IMG/VR virus record: IMGVR_UViG_3300027987_000273
Location: 1 to 52,215 of that record
Source: a virus
Length of the DNA: 52,215 nt
Reading direction: 5' to 3' (one strand)
Made by a program: the position numbers and the translations under genes. Below are positions 1 to 52,215 of the stretch, piece after piece. The first letter of the stretch is position 1. Every line of letters starts with the position of its first letter. The notes under the pieces are model-generated. The model saw nothing but the letters and a program-made list of their open reading frames with translations. It was not told the origin of the DNA and did not search any database.

Positions 1-144
1 ACTGGGCCTGGGCTGCGCGGTCGATGCCCGCGTAGACGCCAGTCGTGTCCAGCGGACCAGACGTGGAATACATACCCACGATCTGTTCGGCCGCACCTGC
101 GCCGGTCCAGAGATCGGCGTTGATGCCCTTCGCGAGACGTTCGA
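1..144. repeat. Terminal direct repeat, left copy
   Basis: The first 144 bases are identical to bases 52072-52215. The repeat lies inside the major capsid gene, so it marks where a circular or circularly permuted molecule was cut open; it is not a functional gene boundary. Joining the ends gives a 52,071-bp circle and restores one uninterrupted capsid reading frame. It could be an assembly overlap or a true terminal redundancy. Confidence 0.97.
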
Positions 145-499
145 CAGCGTCGCCCATCTCGTCGGCGAACAGGTTCTCGAGCTCCTGCGGGTTGCCTGTC
201 GCCATGGCCGCCGCGATGGCCTTACCGGTCATCGAGAACGGCGCGTCGTAGGTCCCGTAATCGAGATTTGCGGGAACCTTCGCGTCGTTCTTGAAGTCCG
301 CCGGGACCAGGTCGGCGCCATCGGCGCGGAAGCTGGAGACGTCGGTACCGAAGCGGGCAGACCATTGGAGGTTCTTGCCCTCTCCGGGTCCGACCTGGAG
401 CAGCTGCAAACCAACCGACGCGCGGTTGATCTGACTGGTGATCTGCTCCTCGAAGATGGTGGCCAGGGTGTTCGCAATGGCCGCGAGATCGACTGCCAT
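1..499 (-). CDS. Major capsid protein, N-terminal part
   Basis: This is the first 166 codons of a 348-residue major capsid protein whose remainder is at 51524-52071. The ATG at 499 is preceded by AAGGAG at good spacing. The reading frame runs off the window edge and continues in phase across the circular junction. The protein begins MAVDLAAIANTLATIFEEQI, an N-arm typical of capsid proteins. It lies just downstream of the scaffold gene (644-1489), the usual order in tailed phages. Length and context fit an HK97-fold capsid protein that builds the procapsid shell, although the fold itself is inferred from context rather than from a motif. Confidence 0.9.
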   Translation of the reverse strand, partial: MAVDLAAIANTLATIFEEQITSQINRASVGLQLLQVGPGEGKNLQWSARFGTDVSSFRADGADLVPADFKNDAKVPANLDYGTYDAPFSMTGKAIAAAMATGNPQELENLFADEMGDAVERLAKGINADLWTGAGAAEQIVGMYSTSGPLDTTGVYAGIDRAAQAQ

Positions 500-643: not shown

Positions 644-1489
644 TTATTTGTCCTCGCCGCCGGTGATTTGCACCTGGCCGCCGCCGCCGATGAGCTGGGC
701 CGCAAGACTGGGGAGCTGGCGCCGTGCTTCGGCAATCCGCTCGGCCTTCGCCTGCTTCGGGTCGACCGGGCGCCCGCCTGGGCGTGGCCCGCCATGGGCC
801 GGGACGGTGCCCGAGCCACCGCCTCCGGGCTTCGGGGCGAGGTAGGCCTTCCCGACCTCGGTCTCCGCCCACTCCTTGACGCCCTCGGCCAGGGGGATCT
901 CCTCGTCGTAGCCCTTGGCCGTCGAGATGTAGACGTAGGAGCCGTCCTTCAGCTGGCGAACGTTCGCCATGACCTCGGCCATCGCGCCGCGGATGCGCCG
1001 TGGCTCGACTCCGGTGGAGTTCAGCGCGTCCTTGAGCGTCCCGTCGCGTTTCGCCTCGAGGCTCTTTTTCTCGTTGTCGAGTCGAATCTGTCGCTCCTGG
1101 TCGAGGGCCTTCTGGAGCCGCTTGACCTCCTCCGACTGGCCGCCCTGGTTCTGCCCCTGGGCGTCTCCTCCGCCGCTCTGCGAGCTTCCGCCGCCCTGGG
1201 CGCCGTCCTGGGTCCTGTGGACGCCCAGGCTCTCGAGGGTCGTTTTGATGGGGCTGAGGGCGGAGTCCAGCTTCCGCTCCATGTGGGTGGCGACCGCCGC
1301 GTTCACGATGCGCGCGATGGTCTTCTCCTGGTCGGCGCTGAAGGCTGAAGGCGACGGGGCCCCTCCTCCTCCGCCGTCTCCCCCGGCGCCACCGTCTCCC
1401 CCTCCAGCGGCGCCGCCTCCGCCTCCCCCGTCTGGGGTGTTGAGGTTAACAGCGTTAGCGAACGAGCGCAGCCATCCCAGTCGATTCAT
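644..1489 (-). CDS. Scaffolding protein
   Basis: A 281-residue protein located directly upstream of the capsid gene, the classical place for the internal scaffold that guides procapsid assembly. After a short N-terminus comes a glycine-rich low-complexity linker (about residues 20-45). A charged, helix-forming middle rich in E, K, R and Q follows, then a Gly/Pro-rich region and a short helical C-terminus, the part that usually contacts the capsid. The start chosen is the ATG at 1489 (MNRLGWLRSF), with AAGGAG upstream. An ATG-less extension to 1516 is possible but lacks a ribosome site. No protease catalytic motif is visible, so it is probably a pure scaffold. Confidence 0.82.
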   Translation of the reverse strand: MNRLGWLRSFANAVNLNTPDGGGGGGAAGGGDGGAGGDGGGGGAPSPSAFSADQEKTIARIVNAAVATHMERKLDSALSPIKTTLESLGVHRTQDGAQGGGSSQSGGGDAQGQNQGGQSEEVKRLQKALDQERQIRLDNEKKSLEAKRDGTLKDALNSTGVEPRRIRGAMAEVMANVRQLKDGSYVYISTAKGYDEEIPLAEGVKEWAETEVGKAYLAPKPGGGGSGTVPAHGGPRPGGRPVDPKQAKAERIAEARRQLPSLAAQLIGGGGQVQITGGEDK

Positions 1490-1558
1490 CCTGTGTCTCC
1501 TTGTCCCACACACCACATCGGGTGGGTTACAGGTCGGAGACTACCCCATCAGGTGGAA

Positions 1559-1753
1559 TCACGGAAGGCCGGCGCCCTCCGCGTCGATGGACGCCCGAAC
1601 GTTCCAGCGCTCTGAGAGCTTGATGAAGGCCTCCGGGTCGTCCTGGAGCATGGCCAGCATCTCCCACTCCTCGGATGTGATCTCGCGGTTCCGGCTCTCG
1701 TAGAACCGCTTCACGGCGCGGAGATCGTTTCTCTCAATAGAACCGATGTTCAT
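1559..1753 (-). CDS. Small conserved-context head-module protein (64 aa)
   Basis: A 64-residue acidic, mostly helical protein beginning MNIGSIERND. The ATG has AAAAGG seven bases upstream. It sits between the MuF-type protein and the scaffold, both co-transcribed with it. I do not recognise the family. Position suggests a minor head or assembly role, but that is inference only. Confidence 0.6.
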   Translation of the reverse strand: MNIGSIERNDLRAVKRFYESRNREITSEEWEMLAMLQDDPEAFIKLSERWNVRASIDAEGAGLP

Positions 1754-1768: not shown

Positions 1769-3892
1769 TTACTTCTTGCCAGGTCTGAACGCCAGGTCGA
1801 ACAGAAGAGATGTAATTTTACCCTGGGCGTGGGTGAGTTCCACGTATTCCCCTTCGACCTTCTCGACCAGGCCCTTGCTGCGCCGGTCCAGGTTCTCGTC
1901 TCCGGTCGGAGGGAAGGACCGCGCGAACTCCGCGGAGATCTCGTTACCCCCCTCCATGGCCCGCCCGATGCGCTTGAACCTGTCGCTCGCCTCCTCGACG
2001 ATCTTCCGGGCCTTCGGCCTGCTGACCTTCCAGACCTTCGCTACCTCGTCGGTCAGGGGGTCGATGAATTCGGAGTAGCTGCCCCCGGTGGCGAAGTGTT
2101 GCGCCGGGACCCCGAACCGCTTCATCATGTCGCGTCGCGCCAGGACCTCGGTGGTTACCTCCTCGACGACCGCGCCCTGGAACCGGTAGCCCCTCATGAC
2201 CACCGGGCCGAACCCGTGGAAGGCCTCATGGTTCACGACCTTCGTGCCCCACACCCCCCGCTTGAGATCATAGTACCCCTTCGCCTTCAGCTGGGCGTGG
2301 ATGGCACTGCGCTCGGCGTCGAGGGTCTCGAATTCCGCCCACAGGGCCCGGTATTTTCGCGCCACCGCCTCGGAGACCGTCACCCCTTCGGGGACTGCGC
2401 CCACGCCGCTCCACTTCTCGAGTGTCAGCTGCTCCTGGAATGGGAGATCTATCGCCGACCGCTTCTCGATGTTCTTCACGACCGCCGCCTGGACCTTGTC
2501 CTGACGCTTGACGAGGGGTGCGGATTCCTTCCAGACCCGCTTCATCTCCGCCGGATTCGGAGCCCATTTTTCGGCGAACTCCTTGGCCATCTTCGCCACG
2601 CGGTTCGTGATGGAGATTGCCCCGTCCCAGTGATGGAGCCCCGCCGCGTCCCCCAGGCTGGGACGTACCCTCATAAGCCGTTTTTTTGCCTCGGTCTCGG
2701 ATGGCGCCCTCTTAATCTGGGCGAACCCCTGGCGGGACAGGTCGGCGTCTAGTACCTGGCGCGCCTTCGACCACTGGCCCTTCGCCAGGTGCGTCTCGTA
2801 GCCCGGTGGCGCCTTTTTCTTCGTCGCCCGGGGCTTCGTGGCCTTCGGCTTCGGCTGGTCCTTGGGCTTCGCCCTGGGCTTCCTGGGCGCGCGAACCGGT
2901 GCGTCCCACTCCGGGTGCCAGGCGACGACCACACACCTACAGTTCGGGTGCCTGGGAGGGTGCTGGACTCCGCCCGGGAACTCCGCCTTCTCGTCGACCA
3001 CGACCCCGTCCAGTTCGCGACACAGGGCACAGAGTCGGAAGTCCGCGCTCGCGTCCCACCGCTTCCTGAACGGGACGTCGCCCTCGGGGAGGTCGTCGTT
3101 CAGCTGCTCGATGGCGTCCAGGTGCTGGGCGTTATAGGCGTTCTGCATCTCCGTCCGGACCAGGCGCTCGCCCCAGTGCTGATATCTGCGGAACAGCCCC
3201 TCGGAGATGTCCTCGACGATGGCGCCGGGTTCGCCGACGACGCCGCGGAGGGCTACGAGCCCGCGCGGGCCGCCCAGGCGCCGGAGGCGACTCGTCATCT
3301 GGGCATAGGTCTCGCCCTTGGCCAGGCCGATCCCGAACTGGAGCCGGATGTCGTCCCGGATGTTCTGGACGTACCGGGCCGCAGACGTTCGGAACCTGGG
3401 CACGAGCTCGCGCTGTCCAGCAGCCACCAGGGCCGCCGTGTCGATCTGGGTGGGCATGATGGCCAGGTTCCCCGGGCCGCCGAACACGTGCGCCAGGCGC
3501 GCGACCTCGCGTTCCACGTGGAAACCGGCCATGATGCCCGCCTCGGTCGCGCCATCGATCATGGCCTCGCCGATGCCAGGCTGGGCCTCGCGGATGGTCC
3601 TGATGGCCGTGTTGACCGACGCGAGGGCCCGATTCATCTGGTAGGCCGTGAATCTCTCATTCCCGCCCGGGATTTGCTGGTACCACTGGAGGAGCCCCTG
3701 GCGGAGCTCGGCCTTCGCCCGGGACAGGACAGGGAGGAGCTTCCTCATGACCTTCGGGTCGAGCTCGGCGACCTCGCGGGCCATGTCCTCCATGACCCGG
3801 GCGACCCTGCGCGCCTTCGACCGCCCTGGGTTGATGGGCGCATGGCGGCCAGGCGGGTCCGCGTCCGTCGTGATGGGCGGGTCAGGGGGCAC
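1769..3892 (-). CDS. MuF/SPP1 gp7-type minor head protein fused to a HExxH metallopeptidase-like domain
   Basis: A 707-residue protein, far longer than the usual 250-400 residues of SPP1 gp7/Mu gpF proteins. Residues about 60-340 look like the minor head domain. They end in the diagnostic cysteine/histidine cluster (RTEMQNAYNAQ, then DFRLCALCRELDG, then HPPRHPNCRC) seen in this family. A Lys/Pro-rich linker follows (about 345-385). The C-terminal half contains NHEAFHGFG at 554-562, a zinc-metallopeptidase HExxHxxG motif, and EEVTTEVLAR at 577-586, which could give the third zinc ligand. MuF proteins are minor virion components, and their C-terminal fusions are often enzymes or toxins delivered with the DNA. 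The start is GTG 3892 with AGGAGG upstream, overlapping the previous gene by 11 bases. Confidence 0.85.
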   Translation of the reverse strand: MPPDPPITTDADPPGRHAPINPGRSKARRVARVMEDMAREVAELDPKVMRKLLPVLSRAKAELRQGLLQWYQQIPGGNERFTAYQMNRALASVNTAIRTIREAQPGIGEAMIDGATEAGIMAGFHVEREVARLAHVFGGPGNLAIMPTQIDTAALVAAGQRELVPRFRTSAARYVQNIRDDIRLQFGIGLAKGETYAQMTSRLRRLGGPRGLVALRGVVGEPGAIVEDISEGLFRRYQHWGERLVRTEMQNAYNAQHLDAIEQLNDDLPEGDVPFRKRWDASADFRLCALCRELDGVVVDEKAEFPGGVQHPPRHPNCRCVVVAWHPEWDAPVRAPRKPRAKPKDQPKPKATKPRATKKKAPPGYETHLAKGQWSKARQVLDADLSRQGFAQIKRAPSETEAKKRLMRVRPSLGDAAGLHHWDGAISITNRVAKMAKEFAEKWAPNPAEMKRVWKESAPLVKRQDKVQAAVVKNIEKRSAIDLPFQEQLTLEKWSGVGAVPEGVTVSEAVARKYRALWAEFETLDAERSAIHAQLKAKGYYDLKRGVWGTKVVNHEAFHGFGPVVMRGYRFQGAVVEEVTTEVLARRDMMKRFGVPAQHFATGGSYSEFIDPLTDEVAKVWKVSRPKARKIVEEASDRFKRIGRAMEGGNEISAEFARSFPPTGDENLDRRSKGLVEKVEGEYVELTHAQGKITSLLFDLAFRPGKK

Positions 3893-4067
3893 TGCCGATG
3901 GTCCTCCTGGTCGCCGACTGGCTGAACTCGACGACCTCGATCCAATCCCGCTTCGGGTCTACCGGGATGTGCCAGATGATCTCGCCATTCTGGCCCCACC
4001 CGTAATCAAACGCGCTCCACATGGTGTCCTGGCGCGCGAGTCTACCGTTCAGGAAGACCAGGCGCAT
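3882..4067 (-). CDS. Small head-module protein (61 aa)
   Basis: A 61-residue protein, MRLVFLNGRLARQDTMWSAF, with tryptophan-rich beta-like segments (WHIPVD, RDWIEVV). It begins just after the portal stop and overlaps the start of the MuF gene by 11 bases, so it is translationally coupled to both. No family is recognised. A structural accessory role is likely from position. Confidence 0.65.
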   Translation of the reverse strand: MRLVFLNGRLARQDTMWSAFDYGWGQNGEIIWHIPVDPKRDWIEVVEFSQSATRRTIGSAP

Positions 4068-4070
4068 CGC

Positions 4071-5885
4071 CTACCTGGAGGAGAAGACGCTACGCTGGCC
4101 CTGGGCGACCTGGCGCCGCTGTTCGGCGCGAGGGGGAGGTTCGTCCTCGTCCTCGTCGTCGTCCTCCTCCTCGCCCTCGCCCATGCGCTCGAGGCCCTGC
4201 ATGGCGACGCTCTCCGCCATGAGGATGGACTCCGCCGTGACCATCTCCGTGACCTCCTCGCGGATGGCCGCGCGGTCGTTCTCGGTGAGCTCCCCGCCCA
4301 GGAGCAGGGTGTAGACCTTGATCAGGTACTTCTGGAGGAACGTGTGCGACTTCATGGGGAGGCCGTTCAGGACCTCGACCGCCTCCTCGATGGCCGCCTT
4401 CACGTCGACGTCAGAGAAGTTCTCGGCGCCGCACACCTTCGCGTCGAGCTCCTTGCCCCTGGCCCTCTCGACCAGGACCTTCACGTCGTGGAGGCCTTCG
4501 CGACCGTAGACGCCCAGGGCCGCCAAAACCACGCGAGTGACCGCTTCGTCCGCCTTCTTGCTGTCGCCCGACCTGTTCAGGGCCTTGGAGTCCATATCCG
4601 CAGACAGCGCCATGGAATACATGACCCGAAACATCTCCTGCATGATCTGGGCTGCGGACTCTCGCGACTCCTTGAACGGGGCGACGTCCGGGCCGATGAA
4701 CCTGGCGTCGTCGTCCTTGCCTCGGACCTGGCTGTAGCCCTGGCCGCGAACCTGGGACAGGGCCCTGTTCTCGTCCTCCTGGGCCGCCGAGACTGGCATG
4801 GTGCCCACGTCGTCCTCGGGTCCCAGGAACTCGTAGAGGATGGCGAAAAGGCTCTTGTATTCGGCCCAGGCTGTCGCGCAGCGTTTGTTGAAGTGTTCCC
4901 GGGCCAGGCTCTCGAGCTTCCCCATGGCCCAAAGGCCCTCGGGGATCTCGACGCACACGAACGGTACCTTATTGAACGAATGGGGCCCCTCGGCGAGGAA
5001 CGCCACCGGGGTCTCGGGCTTCGGCGGTTCCTTCGGGTCGTAGGTGATCCGGTACTGGACCCAGCCCACTCGGTCGTAGAACGTGTAAGTGTTCGTCACC
5101 AGACCCCGCTTGTCGCGGAGGCTGTTCCGGCGCTGCTCGCTGTCGCAGATCAGGACCCACTCGAGCTCGCCATTGTTGTCCTTCTGCCAGTCGATGACGT
5201 ATTCGGCTTCCACGCGGACCGCGTAGGGGTCGAGGAGGCCCGCCTTCTCCTGGGCCAGGACGCTGTCGATGGTCACCCCGTCCTCGGGGGTCTGGGGGAG
5301 GTCGACCAGGATCCACGACCGACGACAGATCAGCGCCTCGCGGACGACCTCCATCATCAGGCGCTGGGCCGACTGTCGCTTCCCTTCTGGGGGCGAGACG
5401 TCCTCGAGGAAATCCTTCCACCACTCGTCCAGCGGAGGCGCGTCCTCGCCCTCGGCGTTCGAGCTGGGCTCGATGGTGAGGGGGTCGGAACCCAGGCCAG
5501 CTACCAGGTGATCGACGATGGTGCCCGCATAGGGGAAGTAGAACGCGCGGTCGCAGCGCTCGCGGTAGACCTCCGGCGCCTCGTTCCGGTGCTTCGGGAA
5601 CAGGCGCTTCATCAGTCCTTTATTGCGCAGGAGGCGCGGGCCGCCAGCGTAGAGGGCGCGGAGCTCGGCCCACAGGTCGCTGTCATATTCCGGATGCCGC
5701 TCCATGAACAGCTCGAACGGGACGCTCCGACCTTCGCGCTCGTCGTCGGACAGTGCGCCAGCCCGGACAGTGCCACCGGCCATCATGAGAGCCTGGCGGA
5801 GCTGGTACTTTCGGAGCCCCTCCTCGATGGCAGAACCCGCGAGCTCGCGGTCGACGAGGGTCTGGAGGTCCAGTTCGACGGGCAT
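4071..5885 (-). CDS. Portal protein
   Basis: A 604-residue protein between the terminase side and the MuF-type gene, the expected place and size for the dodecameric portal through which DNA enters and leaves the capsid. The N-terminal half contains residues such as FYFPYAGTIVDHLVAGLGSDP. The middle has beta-rich segments (NTYTFYDRVGWVQYRITYDP) and the C-terminal half has long helices, a pattern close to the DUF4055-like portal group. It ends with an acidic run of E and D followed by a basic, glutamine-rich tail. The start ATG at 5885 has AAGGAG within the end of the preceding gene. The assignment rests on length, layout and overall pattern; no catalytic motif exists for portals. Confidence 0.82.
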   Translation of the reverse strand: MPVELDLQTLVDRELAGSAIEEGLRKYQLRQALMMAGGTVRAGALSDDEREGRSVPFELFMERHPEYDSDLWAELRALYAGGPRLLRNKGLMKRLFPKHRNEAPEVYRERCDRAFYFPYAGTIVDHLVAGLGSDPLTIEPSSNAEGEDAPPLDEWWKDFLEDVSPPEGKRQSAQRLMMEVVREALICRRSWILVDLPQTPEDGVTIDSVLAQEKAGLLDPYAVRVEAEYVIDWQKDNNGELEWVLICDSEQRRNSLRDKRGLVTNTYTFYDRVGWVQYRITYDPKEPPKPETPVAFLAEGPHSFNKVPFVCVEIPEGLWAMGKLESLAREHFNKRCATAWAEYKSLFAILYEFLGPEDDVGTMPVSAAQEDENRALSQVRGQGYSQVRGKDDDARFIGPDVAPFKESRESAAQIMQEMFRVMYSMALSADMDSKALNRSGDSKKADEAVTRVVLAALGVYGREGLHDVKVLVERARGKELDAKVCGAENFSDVDVKAAIEEAVEVLNGLPMKSHTFLQKYLIKVYTLLLGGELTENDRAAIREEVTEMVTAESILMAESVAMQGLERMGEGEEEDDDEDEDEPPPRAEQRRQVAQGQRSVFSSR

Positions 5886-6722: not shown

Positions 6723-8156
6723 CTACCCGAAGGGATTAGAAGCGACGCCAGGACCTCGGCGTCGGGGCTTCCTGGCCTTGAACAGCGTATTGAAGGCGTG
6801 CGCGATGGCGTCCACCTGGTCGTCGACGTCGGCCTTCGGGGTGAAGGCCGTCAGCTCCGAGATCAGATCCTTCGCCCAGGGCGCATCGATGGGGACGTGG
6901 ATCCGACCTTCGCTCCAGGCCGACCCGACGTTCTGGGCCCGCTGCCATTTGTCCCCTTCGGGCTGAATCTCGAGGACCCGGAGGCGCCTGTCCTCCTTGC
7001 GGAGGAGCTGGGGCACCGACTTGAACGCGCCCACCGCCTCCACCGCTGTCGCCACGCCCCAATATTTCGTCTGCATCTGGAGCAGGACCTCGACCAGCCT
7101 GGGGATCTCCACCTGGTCGCGGAAGACCTCGAGGACCCAGCCCTCCATCTTCTCGGCGTAGCCCTTGGCCGCCATGACCAGGGCGACGCTGTAGTCCGCA
7201 GCCGTCGACTCCGTCGCCGCAGGGTCGCAGGCGATGACCAGGCGATGTCCGTCCAGCTTCCAGTCGGCCAATTTGAACCGCGAGGGGTAGTCGCTGAATA
7301 GCTGCTGGCCCTTCGTGATGGGCGCCTGCTGGTACAGCGAGGAGAACCCGTAAGGCCCCATGATGGAGCGAATTCCATGGAGCTTCTTGGCCGGCCACCT
7401 GTCGGGCCAGAGGGCCTCGCCTGGCTTGCGACCGAGGAGGTCGCCCTTCTCCGCCAGAGCAGGGAGCCGGATGCGCTCGAAGACTACCCTCTCGCCGGTC
7501 TCCGGGTCCTCGAACCCCTTCAGAAGGCGCCCGACCAGGTCGTCCTTGTGCCAGCGCGTCATGATGACGAGGACCGACGCAATCTCCTCCAGGCGGGACC
7601 AGAACGTGTCCGTGAACCAGTCCCAGATATTGTCCCGGATGAGCTTCGACTCCGCCTCCTTGCGGTTCTTGATGGGGTCGTCGACGACCGCCACACCGGT
7701 GATCCCCTTGCCAGTGAGAGGGCCCTCGACACCCGTGGCCAGGAAGCTCCCCCCGAACGTGTTCTCCCAGTGATGGACGTTCTCGGACGTGAGCTCGAGC
7801 CCGCCCTCCTTGACCAGGCGCCGCACTGCGCGCGACTTATTCAGCGACAGGGCGTCGGCATAGGTGATATAGGCGTGATGGAGTGCCGGGTCGAGCTCCA
7901 TGCGCCAGGCGAACCCGTGGATCGCGGTCGTCGTCTTCGCGTGTCTGGGTGGGAGCTCGATGATGGCCCGGACGGGCTCGTAGCGCGTCCGCTCCCAGAC
8001 GTCGATCAGGGGCTTCAGGTGCGGAGGAGGGGGGAGCCTGGGGTTCCGACGACGGATGAACGGGTCGAGGCCCTCGGCGTTCGCGTCGTAGGCGTACAGC
8101 TCGGCGAGACGCTGCTCGTCCTCGACACTGAACACGTCCTGGGCGAGTGCCACCAT
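6723..8156 (-). CDS. terL: Terminase large subunit
   Basis: A 477-residue packaging motor with ATPase and nuclease halves. The Walker A-like motif is PPRHAKT at 69-75 and Walker B is VAVVDDP at 154-160. A coupling-type motif TRWH lies at 199-202. The RNase H-like nuclease begins with VIACDPAATES (Asp 310), followed by later acidic residues including DVDDQVDAIAHAF near the C-terminus. These match the phage terminase/Terminase_6 type. It translocates DNA into the prohead and cuts the concatemer. The start ATG 8156 has GAGGA upstream. It sits two bases after the 131-residue gene, which does not look like a small terminase. Confidence 0.95.
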   Translation of the reverse strand: MVALAQDVFSVEDEQRLAELYAYDANAEGLDPFIRRRNPRLPPPPHLKPLIDVWERTRYEPVRAIIELPPRHAKTTTAIHGFAWRMELDPALHHAYITYADALSLNKSRAVRRLVKEGGLELTSENVHHWENTFGGSFLATGVEGPLTGKGITGVAVVDDPIKNRKEAESKLIRDNIWDWFTDTFWSRLEEIASVLVIMTRWHKDDLVGRLLKGFEDPETGERVVFERIRLPALAEKGDLLGRKPGEALWPDRWPAKKLHGIRSIMGPYGFSSLYQQAPITKGQQLFSDYPSRFKLADWKLDGHRLVIACDPAATESTAADYSVALVMAAKGYAEKMEGWVLEVFRDQVEIPRLVEVLLQMQTKYWGVATAVEAVGAFKSVPQLLRKEDRRLRVLEIQPEGDKWQRAQNVGSAWSEGRIHVPIDAPWAKDLISELTAFTPKADVDDQVDAIAHAFNTLFKARKPRRRGPGVASNPFG

Positions 8157-51523: not shown

Positions 51524-52215
51524 TTACAGCGTGGCGTCGAGGTCGACGAGGGACCCCTGGGCGTTGCAGCGACGGACCTTGAGCTGCGGGTACAGGATCA
51601 GCTGGAACCGGTAGCTGTCGCCATTGCGACCCAGCGGGTTGATCCTGGCCACCAGGCCGGTCATCTGCGGACCCATGTCCATCTCGGGGGTGCCTTGCAC
51701 GCCGATCATGCCCATGGACTGGTTCACCTCGGAGATCCGGTCGGGCATCTGGCACATCTTGATGTGCCGCGTCGCGAGGAAGGACATCGCCGTCGACGGA
51801 TGGTCGACGTCGCGAACGACGGGGATCCCGTCGAACTCGAGGGCGTTGTGACCACCCTGGAGGGTGATCCGACGTCCGCGGATGGTCACGTCCTGCTGCC
51901 ATCGCCGCTCGTTGCCGAACAGCTTCGAGAACTTCGACCACAGGGCCGGGCCCGTCACGATCAGGTCGGTGTTCTCACCAGACGCGGTGTAGATCGCGTC
52001 CAGGGTGTCGCGCATGAGGTCGAACGTCAGGGCGCGCGGGACGCCGCCGTTCGCCAGCTCATTGGACGCCCACTGGGCCTGGGCTGCGCGGTCGATGCCC
52101 GCGTAGACGCCAGTCGTGTCCAGCGGACCAGACGTGGAATACATACCCACGATCTGTTCGGCCGCACCTGCGCCGGTCCAGAGATCGGCGTTGATGCCCT
52201 TCGCGAGACGTTCGA
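51524..52215 (-). CDS. Major capsid protein, C-terminal part
   Basis: Continuation of the capsid gene that starts at 499; the last 144 bases of this interval duplicate the window start. Residues 141-348 are encoded here, ending at a TAA at 51524. The C-terminal part has beta-rich stretches, for example around the residues NALEFDGIPVVRDVDHP, and an ending compatible with an HK97-like A and P domain. The next gene downstream is the 138-residue head-associated protein at 51010. Confidence 0.9.
   Translation of the reverse strand, partial: ERLAKGINADLWTGAGAAEQIVGMYSTSGPLDTTGVYAGIDRAAQAQWASNELANGGVPRALTFDLMRDTLDAIYTASGENTDLIVTGPALWSKFSKLFGNERRWQQDVTIRGRRITLQGGHNALEFDGIPVVRDVDHPSTAMSFLATRHIKMCQMPDRISEVNQSMGMIGVQGTPEMDMGPQMTGLVARINPLGRNGDSYRFQLILYPQLKVRRCNAQGSLVDLDATL
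52072..52215. repeat. Terminal direct repeat, right copy
   Basis: Exact copy of bases 1-144. It should be removed once when the genome is circularised. Confidence 0.97.

Follow-up and report, generated by a model that had tools for sequence, protein, structure and literature searches.

We analysed a stretch of viral DNA of 52,215 nucleotides (IMG/VR record IMGVR_UViG_3300027987_000273, positions 1 to 52,215; this whole stretch is called the window in the following) with regard to one gene of its head module, which encodes a MuF minor head protein fused to a zincin-like domain. The gene covers 1769..3892 on the minus strand, as do all features of this paragraph, starts with GTG and codes for 707 amino acids (aa). 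A preliminary description, made from the letters of the window, had proposed a MuF core followed by a C-terminal tail with the motifs HEAFH and EEVTTE, which is confirmed for the open reading frame (ORF) running from 3892 to 1769. That is, residues 182-322 (2927..3349) match the Pfam family Phage_Mu_F (PF04233, E 3.5e-12) with 47.5 bits compared to a curated cut-off of 29.6, and PHROG minor-head families match this core with a best E-value of 1.8e-20. A linker rich in Lys, Pro and Ala, as read from the sequence, covers about residues 335-379 (2756..2890) and leads to the zincin-like domain (modelled residues 380-707, 1772..2755). The latter comprises a strand region with Gly424 (residues 418-428, 2609..2641), a long helical insert (about residues 447-539, 2276..2554) between strand and HExxH helix, HEAFH (residues 555-559, 2216..2230), EEVTTE (residues 577-582, 2147..2164) and Tyr606 (2075..2077). 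About 15 bases past the stop of the fusion gene starts a gene for a 64-aa protein (1559..1753; ERND...LQDDP family), a candidate immunity protein or inhibitor that we call the partner and that the preliminary description does not mention.

Taken alone, HExxH is not beyond chance in the window, i.e., it occurs in 5/505 stop-to-stop ORFs of at least 60 aa; EExxxE is not found in the residues printed (up to 29) after HExxH of the other four. The zincin signature claimed for the tail thus holds not through HExxH itself but through family membership, which puts the tail above chance. Nine virus loci were recruited via the portal gene, and each of them has a MuF relative in the next gene. One of these (L007), recruited without the motif, ends with HEATH...EEVTTEVAARR and is similar to the window tail with a tblastn E-value of 2e-11 (nine loci searched). 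Further loci were collected with a small alignment and with DNA patterns covering both motifs, such that 40 distinct members could be aligned. When the window and L007 are taken out of this joint alignment, the hidden Markov model (HMM) of the 38 other members matches the window tail with E 1.3e-39 and L007 with E 1.3e-41.

The alignment includes members that are 11-28% identical to the window. Since the search patterns required HExxH and EExTTE for most members, we do not count the invariance of these motifs as evidence. Outside of every search pattern are Tyr606, present in 40/40 aligned members (the second domain of L090, which was added later, has Phe), and Gly424, present in 37/40. In addition, HExxH and EExxxE are kept in 5/5 domains found without the motif, i.e., through the portal or partner gene (L007, L081, L085 and both domains of L090). 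The two Thr of EExTTE, in contrast, vary among these finds. The loss of HExxH in relatives, which the preliminary description had named as counter-evidence, is therefore not observed there. The spacing between HExxH and EExxxE is 17 residues in the window and 15-23 in the family. Three residues past HExxH, 36/40 members have Ser or Gly, and at the next position 22/40 have Pro. Compared to L066, the zincin core shows 31% identity (aligned core) and the MuF part 51% (BLAST).

The 333-residue window tail has no Pfam match, even at E 10, and matches no PHROG or NCBIfam family. The best library matches of single members are MPTase-PolyVal in Pfam (E 0.0018, 1/40), PRK15026 dipeptidase in NCBIfam (E 0.0011, 1/40) and phrog_35295 in PHROG (E 0.005, 1/6 domains tried). 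Short peptide patterns of the tail yielded no relatives in virus contigs or bacterial genomes, and a search of bacterial genomes with the alignment A5 gave 30 stretches of which none was confirmed. The L007 domain as query recovered only L007, and tblastn of the tail and of member domains in phages and plasmids gave nothing convincing, with three Sulfolobus virus rows at E 0.1-0.3. Among the collected loci, we dropped L012, L017 and L019 (ORFs lacking resemblance), L013 (an unrelated protein), L036, L039, L051, L061, L063, L068, L069, L071 and L075 (off-frame), L065 (an acidic repeat) and L074 (a 136-aa ORF, HMM E 0.022). Loci of the same phage were collapsed, namely L011, L018, L020 and L092 with L007 as well as L022, L023, L047, L055 and L058 with L021; further duplicates are L024 (of L016), L025 (of L015), L026 (of L014), L049 (of L045) and L064 (of L028).

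The structure prediction and fold search suggested in the preliminary description gave a divided result, i.e., the two motifs are placed on successive helices with high confidence, and no fold match is significant. Using the 40-row alignment, AF2 models residues 380-707 with a mean pLDDT of 82.2 and a pTM of 0.78 (residues 380-394 are under 50), while the tail as single sequence reaches a pLDDT of 41. HExxH is on model helix 161-180 and EEVTTE on helix 192-214, with pLDDT 90-96 for this block. The model thus shows one feature of the zincin superfamily, in which the HExxH helix is succeeded by a helix bearing a conserved Glu. Three short strands and then the helical insert (model helices 68-100, 106-114 and 129-158) precede the HExxH helix. 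From Gly424 to His555 there are 130 residues in the window, the longest distance of all 40, vs. 28-87 in the other 39 members, the rows of which were cut 125 residues upstream of HExxH. The best zincin row of Foldseek is 3nqx (E 1.2, probability 0.54), a weak match described as M4 in the search output. Thermolysin-like rows range from E 1.2 to 5.8 and DPP III (6eom) has E 5.1, amid many unrelated helical rows. The rows 4k89, 9h0x and 1ezm we take to belong to the M4 family. Second-look (VIA) fold alignments are mostly long-helix matches dominated by the helical insert.

In profile comparisons, the best match among solved enzymes, a weak one, is to family M49. The best match of the family profile among PDB sequences is DPP III (5zum, E 0.16), and hhalign of the 40-member profile with the M49 pair 5zum/6eom gives a probability of 78.8% and E 1.6e-5 (one comparison) over 24 columns. 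Longer M49 segments give 75.3% with a match that is no longer, and a phage M78-like pair gives 2.7%. Sequence comparison finds the M49 active-site motifs HExx(G)H and EExxx(D/E) in the domain. The likeness is to the pentapeptide subgroup of DPP III, which shows HExxHGxGP and (I/V)EExxx(D/E), i.e., HELMHGLGP..IEEAKAD in 5zum and HEISHGLGP..IEECKAD in 6eom. In contrast to the window, M49 has 27 instead of 17 residues between the motifs and chains of 537-566 residues instead of a domain of about 300; furthermore, only the HExxH region is covered by the profile match. PF03571 (M49) has no match in the window, with a control that was positive in 1/14 genomes. Judged by its sequence, the domain is M49-like at the active site and not an M49 member. 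In DPP III of C. abyssi, zinc is bound by His379, His383 and Glu412, and the latter is the second Glu of the motif (PMC5805324), which makes E578 the likelier third ligand of the window domain. Motif, family conservation and predicted structure hence suggest that H555, H559 and, by this analogy, E578 hold a zinc ion while E556 would activate water as general base.

A second point of comparison are MPTase-PolyVal (PF18818) and the zincins of polyvalent proteins, which likewise have the HExxH helix with a Glu on the next one and sit in injected or virion carrier proteins with some multi-domain members (PMC5512222). Unlike these, 1/40 family members matches PF18818 (the domain match given above), and L031 in full length reaches 17.3 bits with a cut-off of 27.5. 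For the window tail, there is no PF18818 match; a search of the whole genome, the control of which was silent, gave none either.

We scanned 34/40 members for MuF (L027, L035, L038, L042, L048 and L054 were left out). A Pfam MuF match at E ≤ 0.01 is present in 21/34, with L014, L045 and L050 below the curated cut-off. The MuF parts of L076, L066, L037 and L056, zincin-bearing loci from the motif scans, are 48-53% identical to that of the window. Two members are portal fusions (L040:7666-9702 with PF06381 at E 1.8e-40; L070:5913-9722 with PF06074 at E 2.6e-15), and three are long multi-enzyme proteins, i.e., L030 (NUDIX, GNAT), L046 (radical SAM, NUDIX) and L060 (PAPS reductase). The 1052-aa ORF L081:2522-5677 joins MuF, zincin, a GNAT-like and an ADP-ribosyltransferase-like part, the last two as judged by eye; it combines payload kinds that are otherwise met singly on related carriers. 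L090:1180-3855 is a MuF-like protein with two tandem zincin domains. In the MuF-zincin L033:718-3822, the region between the two domains weakly matches an intein-splicing family (PF14890, E 0.0012, below cut-off).

The ends of the record share an exact direct repeat of 144 bases, i.e., 1..144 is identical to 52072-52215. The record therefore looks like a complete genome of 52,071 unique bases with the capsid gene spanning the ends, and the head module can be read round them. Its order is terminase large subunit, portal, MuF, 64-aa ORF, scaffold-like protein and capsid, all on the minus strand. The terminase large subunit (6723..8156) matches PF17289 (E 1.2e-12) and phrog_38 (E 5e-81), the portal protein directly upstream of the fusion gene (4071..5885) matches phrog_145 (E 2.3e-26), and the scaffold-like protein (644..1516) matches phrog_206 (E 4.9e-4). 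The major capsid protein candidate, named by place and length without a family search, has its N-terminal part at 2..499 and its remainder at 51524-52213 across the terminal repeat. The statement of the preliminary description that the head module shows no other protease holds for the three families searched, i.e., Peptidase_S78, S49 and CLP protease are without match in genome and head module. Likewise, the integrase/resolvase/recombinase families PF00589, PF00239 and PF07508 have no match in this genome.

The MuF cores of the nine portal-gene relatives are 32-55% identical to that of the window, a homologous capsid protein is found in 6/9 loci, and scaffold relatives in L004, L005, L006, L007 and L010. 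Still, the zincin is solely present in L007 (core 37%, capsid 43%). The tail is GNAT-like by eye, without Pfam match, in L004 (core 55%, capsid 75%) and L003, PI3/PI4-kinase-like in L006 (E 4.8e-5, below cut-off; core 51%, capsid 78%) and an ADP-ribosyltransferase in L005 (ADPrib_exo_Tox, PF03496, E 3.9e-11; core 41%, capsid 59%). No tail at all follows the MuF core in L010 (core 32%, capsid 51%), L008 (41%, 42%) and L009 (37%). L009 has neither a scaffold nor a capsid relative within the locus, and L008 has no scaffold relative. The MuF gene of L002 is cut inside the core by the contig end, and L003 has 93 bases downstream, such that neither can show a downstream gene. The records of L004, L006, L008 and L010, which may be fragments, contain no zincin match. 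The zincin is thus an exchangeable cassette on MuF carriers, and it seems dispensable for head assembly in this lineage.

The partner gene is linked to the cassette. Using phmmer, homologues are found at the same place in L066 (9e-16), L037 (8e-14), L076 (3e-13), L056 (8e-10) and, more weakly, in others; an iterated HMM finds the partner ORF at 18 loci with a start between -37 and +42 bases from the zincin stop. Among the 37 zincin genes that are followed by 300 bases or more of sequence (L031, L034 and L044 are left out), the partner is directly downstream in 18/37, or 19/37 with a convergent copy. The latter is a partner-like ORF (L032:2670-3182, minus strand, E 2e-7) that lies on the opposite strand and points towards the zincin gene, an order unlike elsewhere. 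Beside duplicates and this copy, no other partner below E 0.5 was found in the loci collected before the partner-only scan. In that scan, virus contigs were searched with a DNA pattern free of the zincin motif, which gave 21 stretches. Nine of them are true partner loci (7 distinct phages, 4 known before), and a zincin is present in 9/9 with E 1.1e-30 or better; L081, L085 and L090 are new. The 12 chance stretches without partner HMM match (L077-L080, L082-L084, L086-L089 and L091), which were set aside, show a zincin at E ≤ 0.05 in 0/12. In L081, the partner is about 940 bases past the long ORF, and in L090 the zincin protein is flanked on both sides by a partner ORF, the two being different (within 417-1241 and 3606-4031). 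No partner was found in L004, L005, L006, L008, L009 and L010. That is, the 64-aa ORF is a zincin-linked partner. It has no PHROG match below E 0.06 (4 partners tried), and tblastn of the L066 partner in phages gave none.

A short ORF follows the tailed MuF genes of the window, L004, L005, L006 and L007, and 0/3 of the tail-less ones. Those of L004 (63 aa), L005 (46 aa) and L006 (89 aa) do not match the partner HMM; they are candidate immunity genes, with that of L005 being doubtful.

We consider it probable, with moderate confidence, that the fusion gene encodes a MuF polymorphic effector with a zinc-peptidase tail, which is probably delivered at infection and has a dedicated inhibitor. Related phages swap the tail while the tiny gene travels with the protease, and we thus read the pair as probably a virion-packed weapon with its antidote and not as an assembly protease. 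Several features of MuF polymorphic toxins are found, i.e., a gene directly downstream of the portal, a C-terminal extension, an exchangeable tail and a small downstream ORF. For SPP1 gp7, a MuF protein, it is described that the portal draws a few copies into the procapsid, that assembly proceeds without the protein and that the latter supports the onset of infection (PMC6316719). Beyond the observed carrier, family, conservation, cassette exchange and partner linkage, we infer zinc binding, peptidase activity, packaging, delivery, target cleavage and inhibition as follows. As in SPP1, the MuF core would dock on the portal and bring the protein into the procapsid in a few copies. The C-terminal domain would act as zinc peptidase and belong to a zincin-like family for which our searches found no library entry. 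The tail would be released into the next host along with the DNA and cleave a host protein there, as toxin-tailed MuF proteins have been proposed to be delivered at infection. Given its linkage, the 64-aa protein may be the cognate inhibitor that spares the producing cell or the assembling virion; in the case of the toxin Apk2, the adjacent protein IapK blocks the active site (PMC12226406). At the same place, related carriers hold an ADP-ribosyltransferase, a GNAT-like or kinase-like cassette, or nothing. Of the two roles named in the preliminary description, an injected or a maturation protease, the effector on a MuF carrier is the likeliest, and the maturation role falls behind since capsid relatives carry other or no tails.

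A more far-reaching version we put forward tentatively, as it is rather less than probable. Here, the window would hold a new virion toxin-immunity pair with an M49-like peptidase family that evolved as a payload of the head. Its tiny inhibitor would shield both the assembling particle and the producer cell and stay behind, so that the protease reaches the next host in uninhibited form, in a phage without recognised integrase and within a group in which each of the swapped payloads has its own small gene.

Several observations weigh against the effector reading. Published MuF toxins sit in temperate phages, according to the survey of Jamet 2017 (PMC5576092), and without a recognised integrase the need for immunity is less obvious for a non-integrating phage. 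Foldseek finds nothing at E 0.001 in the PDB, where the top row is PcsB, a non-zincin, at E 0.82, and nothing at E 0.001 in BFVD. No partner is recognisable in 18/37 members, of which 4 have a Pfam MuF (L028, L057, L062, L067), 9 are without (2 being portal fusions) and 5 are unscanned. Where it is present, 5/18 partners (L014, L033, L050, L054, L073) joined only in later HMM rounds. Partner and zincin distances are correlated over the 18 loci (r 0.50, reached in 0/5000 permutations), which shared descent would give as well. Finally, the 46-aa ORF of L005 overlaps the scaffold frame and may be spurious.

A rival reading of the tail is self-processing. The zincin might process the MuF protein itself, or free neighbouring effector domains in the longer members, before packaging or after delivery. 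Such a processing of the own polypeptide has been proposed for zincins of polyvalent proteins (cf. P1 DdrB; PMC5512222), and the multi-enzyme members L081, L030 and L046 would offer domains to be freed. In the window, however, the zincin is the last domain, so that little but itself would be freed; the tail-swapped relatives retain the carrier without the zincin peptidase, and self-processing alone leaves a dedicated partner gene unexplained. We therefore rate it as unlikely. A zincin as head-maturation protease of the phage is what the gene's place in the head module and the missing Peptidase_S78, S49 and CLP protease matches would suggest. In addition, phrog_595 (E 2.6e-17) and phrog_16493 (E 1.1e-4), both matching the MuF core, carry the label 'head maturation protease', as do some MuF proteins in annotated phages. 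These PHROG matches, however, cover the MuF part and not the zincin. Other tails or none are seen in relatives whose portal, MuF core and capsid are homologous, including the close capsid relatives L004 and L006 (75-78%) and the more distant L008 and L010, the possibly fragmentary records of which lack a zincin. A scaffold-like gene is present in the module, and in SPP1 the three proteins gp6, gp11 and gp13 suffice for procapsids, with gp7 not among them (PMC6316719). The zincin is furthermore found on portals and off the MuF carrier. Going by these sequence comparisons, a head-maturation role is unlikely, and we give it very little credence as an account of the zincin.

Close to as improbable is a zincin fold without peptidase activity that acts as a binding module. 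It would fit the weak fold searches and the fast divergence of the zincin core relative to the MuF part, as seen with L066. Against it, the predicted ligands, the general base and, in all but one domain, Tyr606 are kept at the low identities within the family; for the motif, this was partly forced by the searches, but ligands and general base are also kept in the members found without it. Concerning the 64-aa partner, a chaperone, adaptor or small head protein in place of an inhibitor is conceivable and somewhat unlikely. L016 and L059 pair the partner with a zincin lacking a recognised MuF, which a loading adaptor could explain. On the other hand, a head protein is unlikely, since no partner is found in the related head modules with another tail or none, i.e., in the six relatives listed above, and the equal number of partner ORFs and zincin domains in L090 (two each) fits a stoichiometric binder. 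The effector with a cognate inhibitor hence stays our preferred reading of the pair.

MuF-metallopeptidase fusions are already known as a class (Jamet 2017, PMC5576092), and the zincin family of the window may be among the metallopeptidases of that survey. The MuF toxins described there are alike in that the core follows directly after the portal gene, the enzymatic tail is variable and a small ORF comes next. They reside in temperate phages; a difference is that the window genome shows none of the three integrase/recombinase families. The Apk2-IapK pair is similar as well, with a MuF carrier, an enzymatic tail and an inhibitor gene (here a candidate) directly after, and IapK is described as poorly conserved between pairs (PMC12226406); Apk2, however, is an adenosine 3'-pyrophosphokinase compared to a predicted peptidase here. 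Within the titles and abstract openings of the papers listed for MuF metallopeptidases and polymorphic toxins, we found no account of the zincin or its partner. The window fits the known scheme of a MuF effector, with a peptidase and a partner family that are absent from the libraries searched.

The window thus extends the MuF effectors by a peptidase and a partner that are defined by sequence. It also shows that at least four types of payload use a single kind of phage head carrier as dock. Should the 64-aa protein be the inhibitor, its binding would reveal how a phage keeps a protease harmless during its own assembly. The predicted host target of the peptidase would mark a vulnerable point in the physiology or defence of bacteria.

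Two of the portal-gene relatives with a tail-less MuF, L008 and L009, encode a further small HExxH protein on an ORF of its own, which lies about 1 kb downstream of the MuF gene. Neither ORF shows profile similarity to the zincin of the window; the one in L008 (9624-10085) is M78-like with E 1.2e-5 and the one in L009 (5273-5752) is SprT-like, below cut-off.

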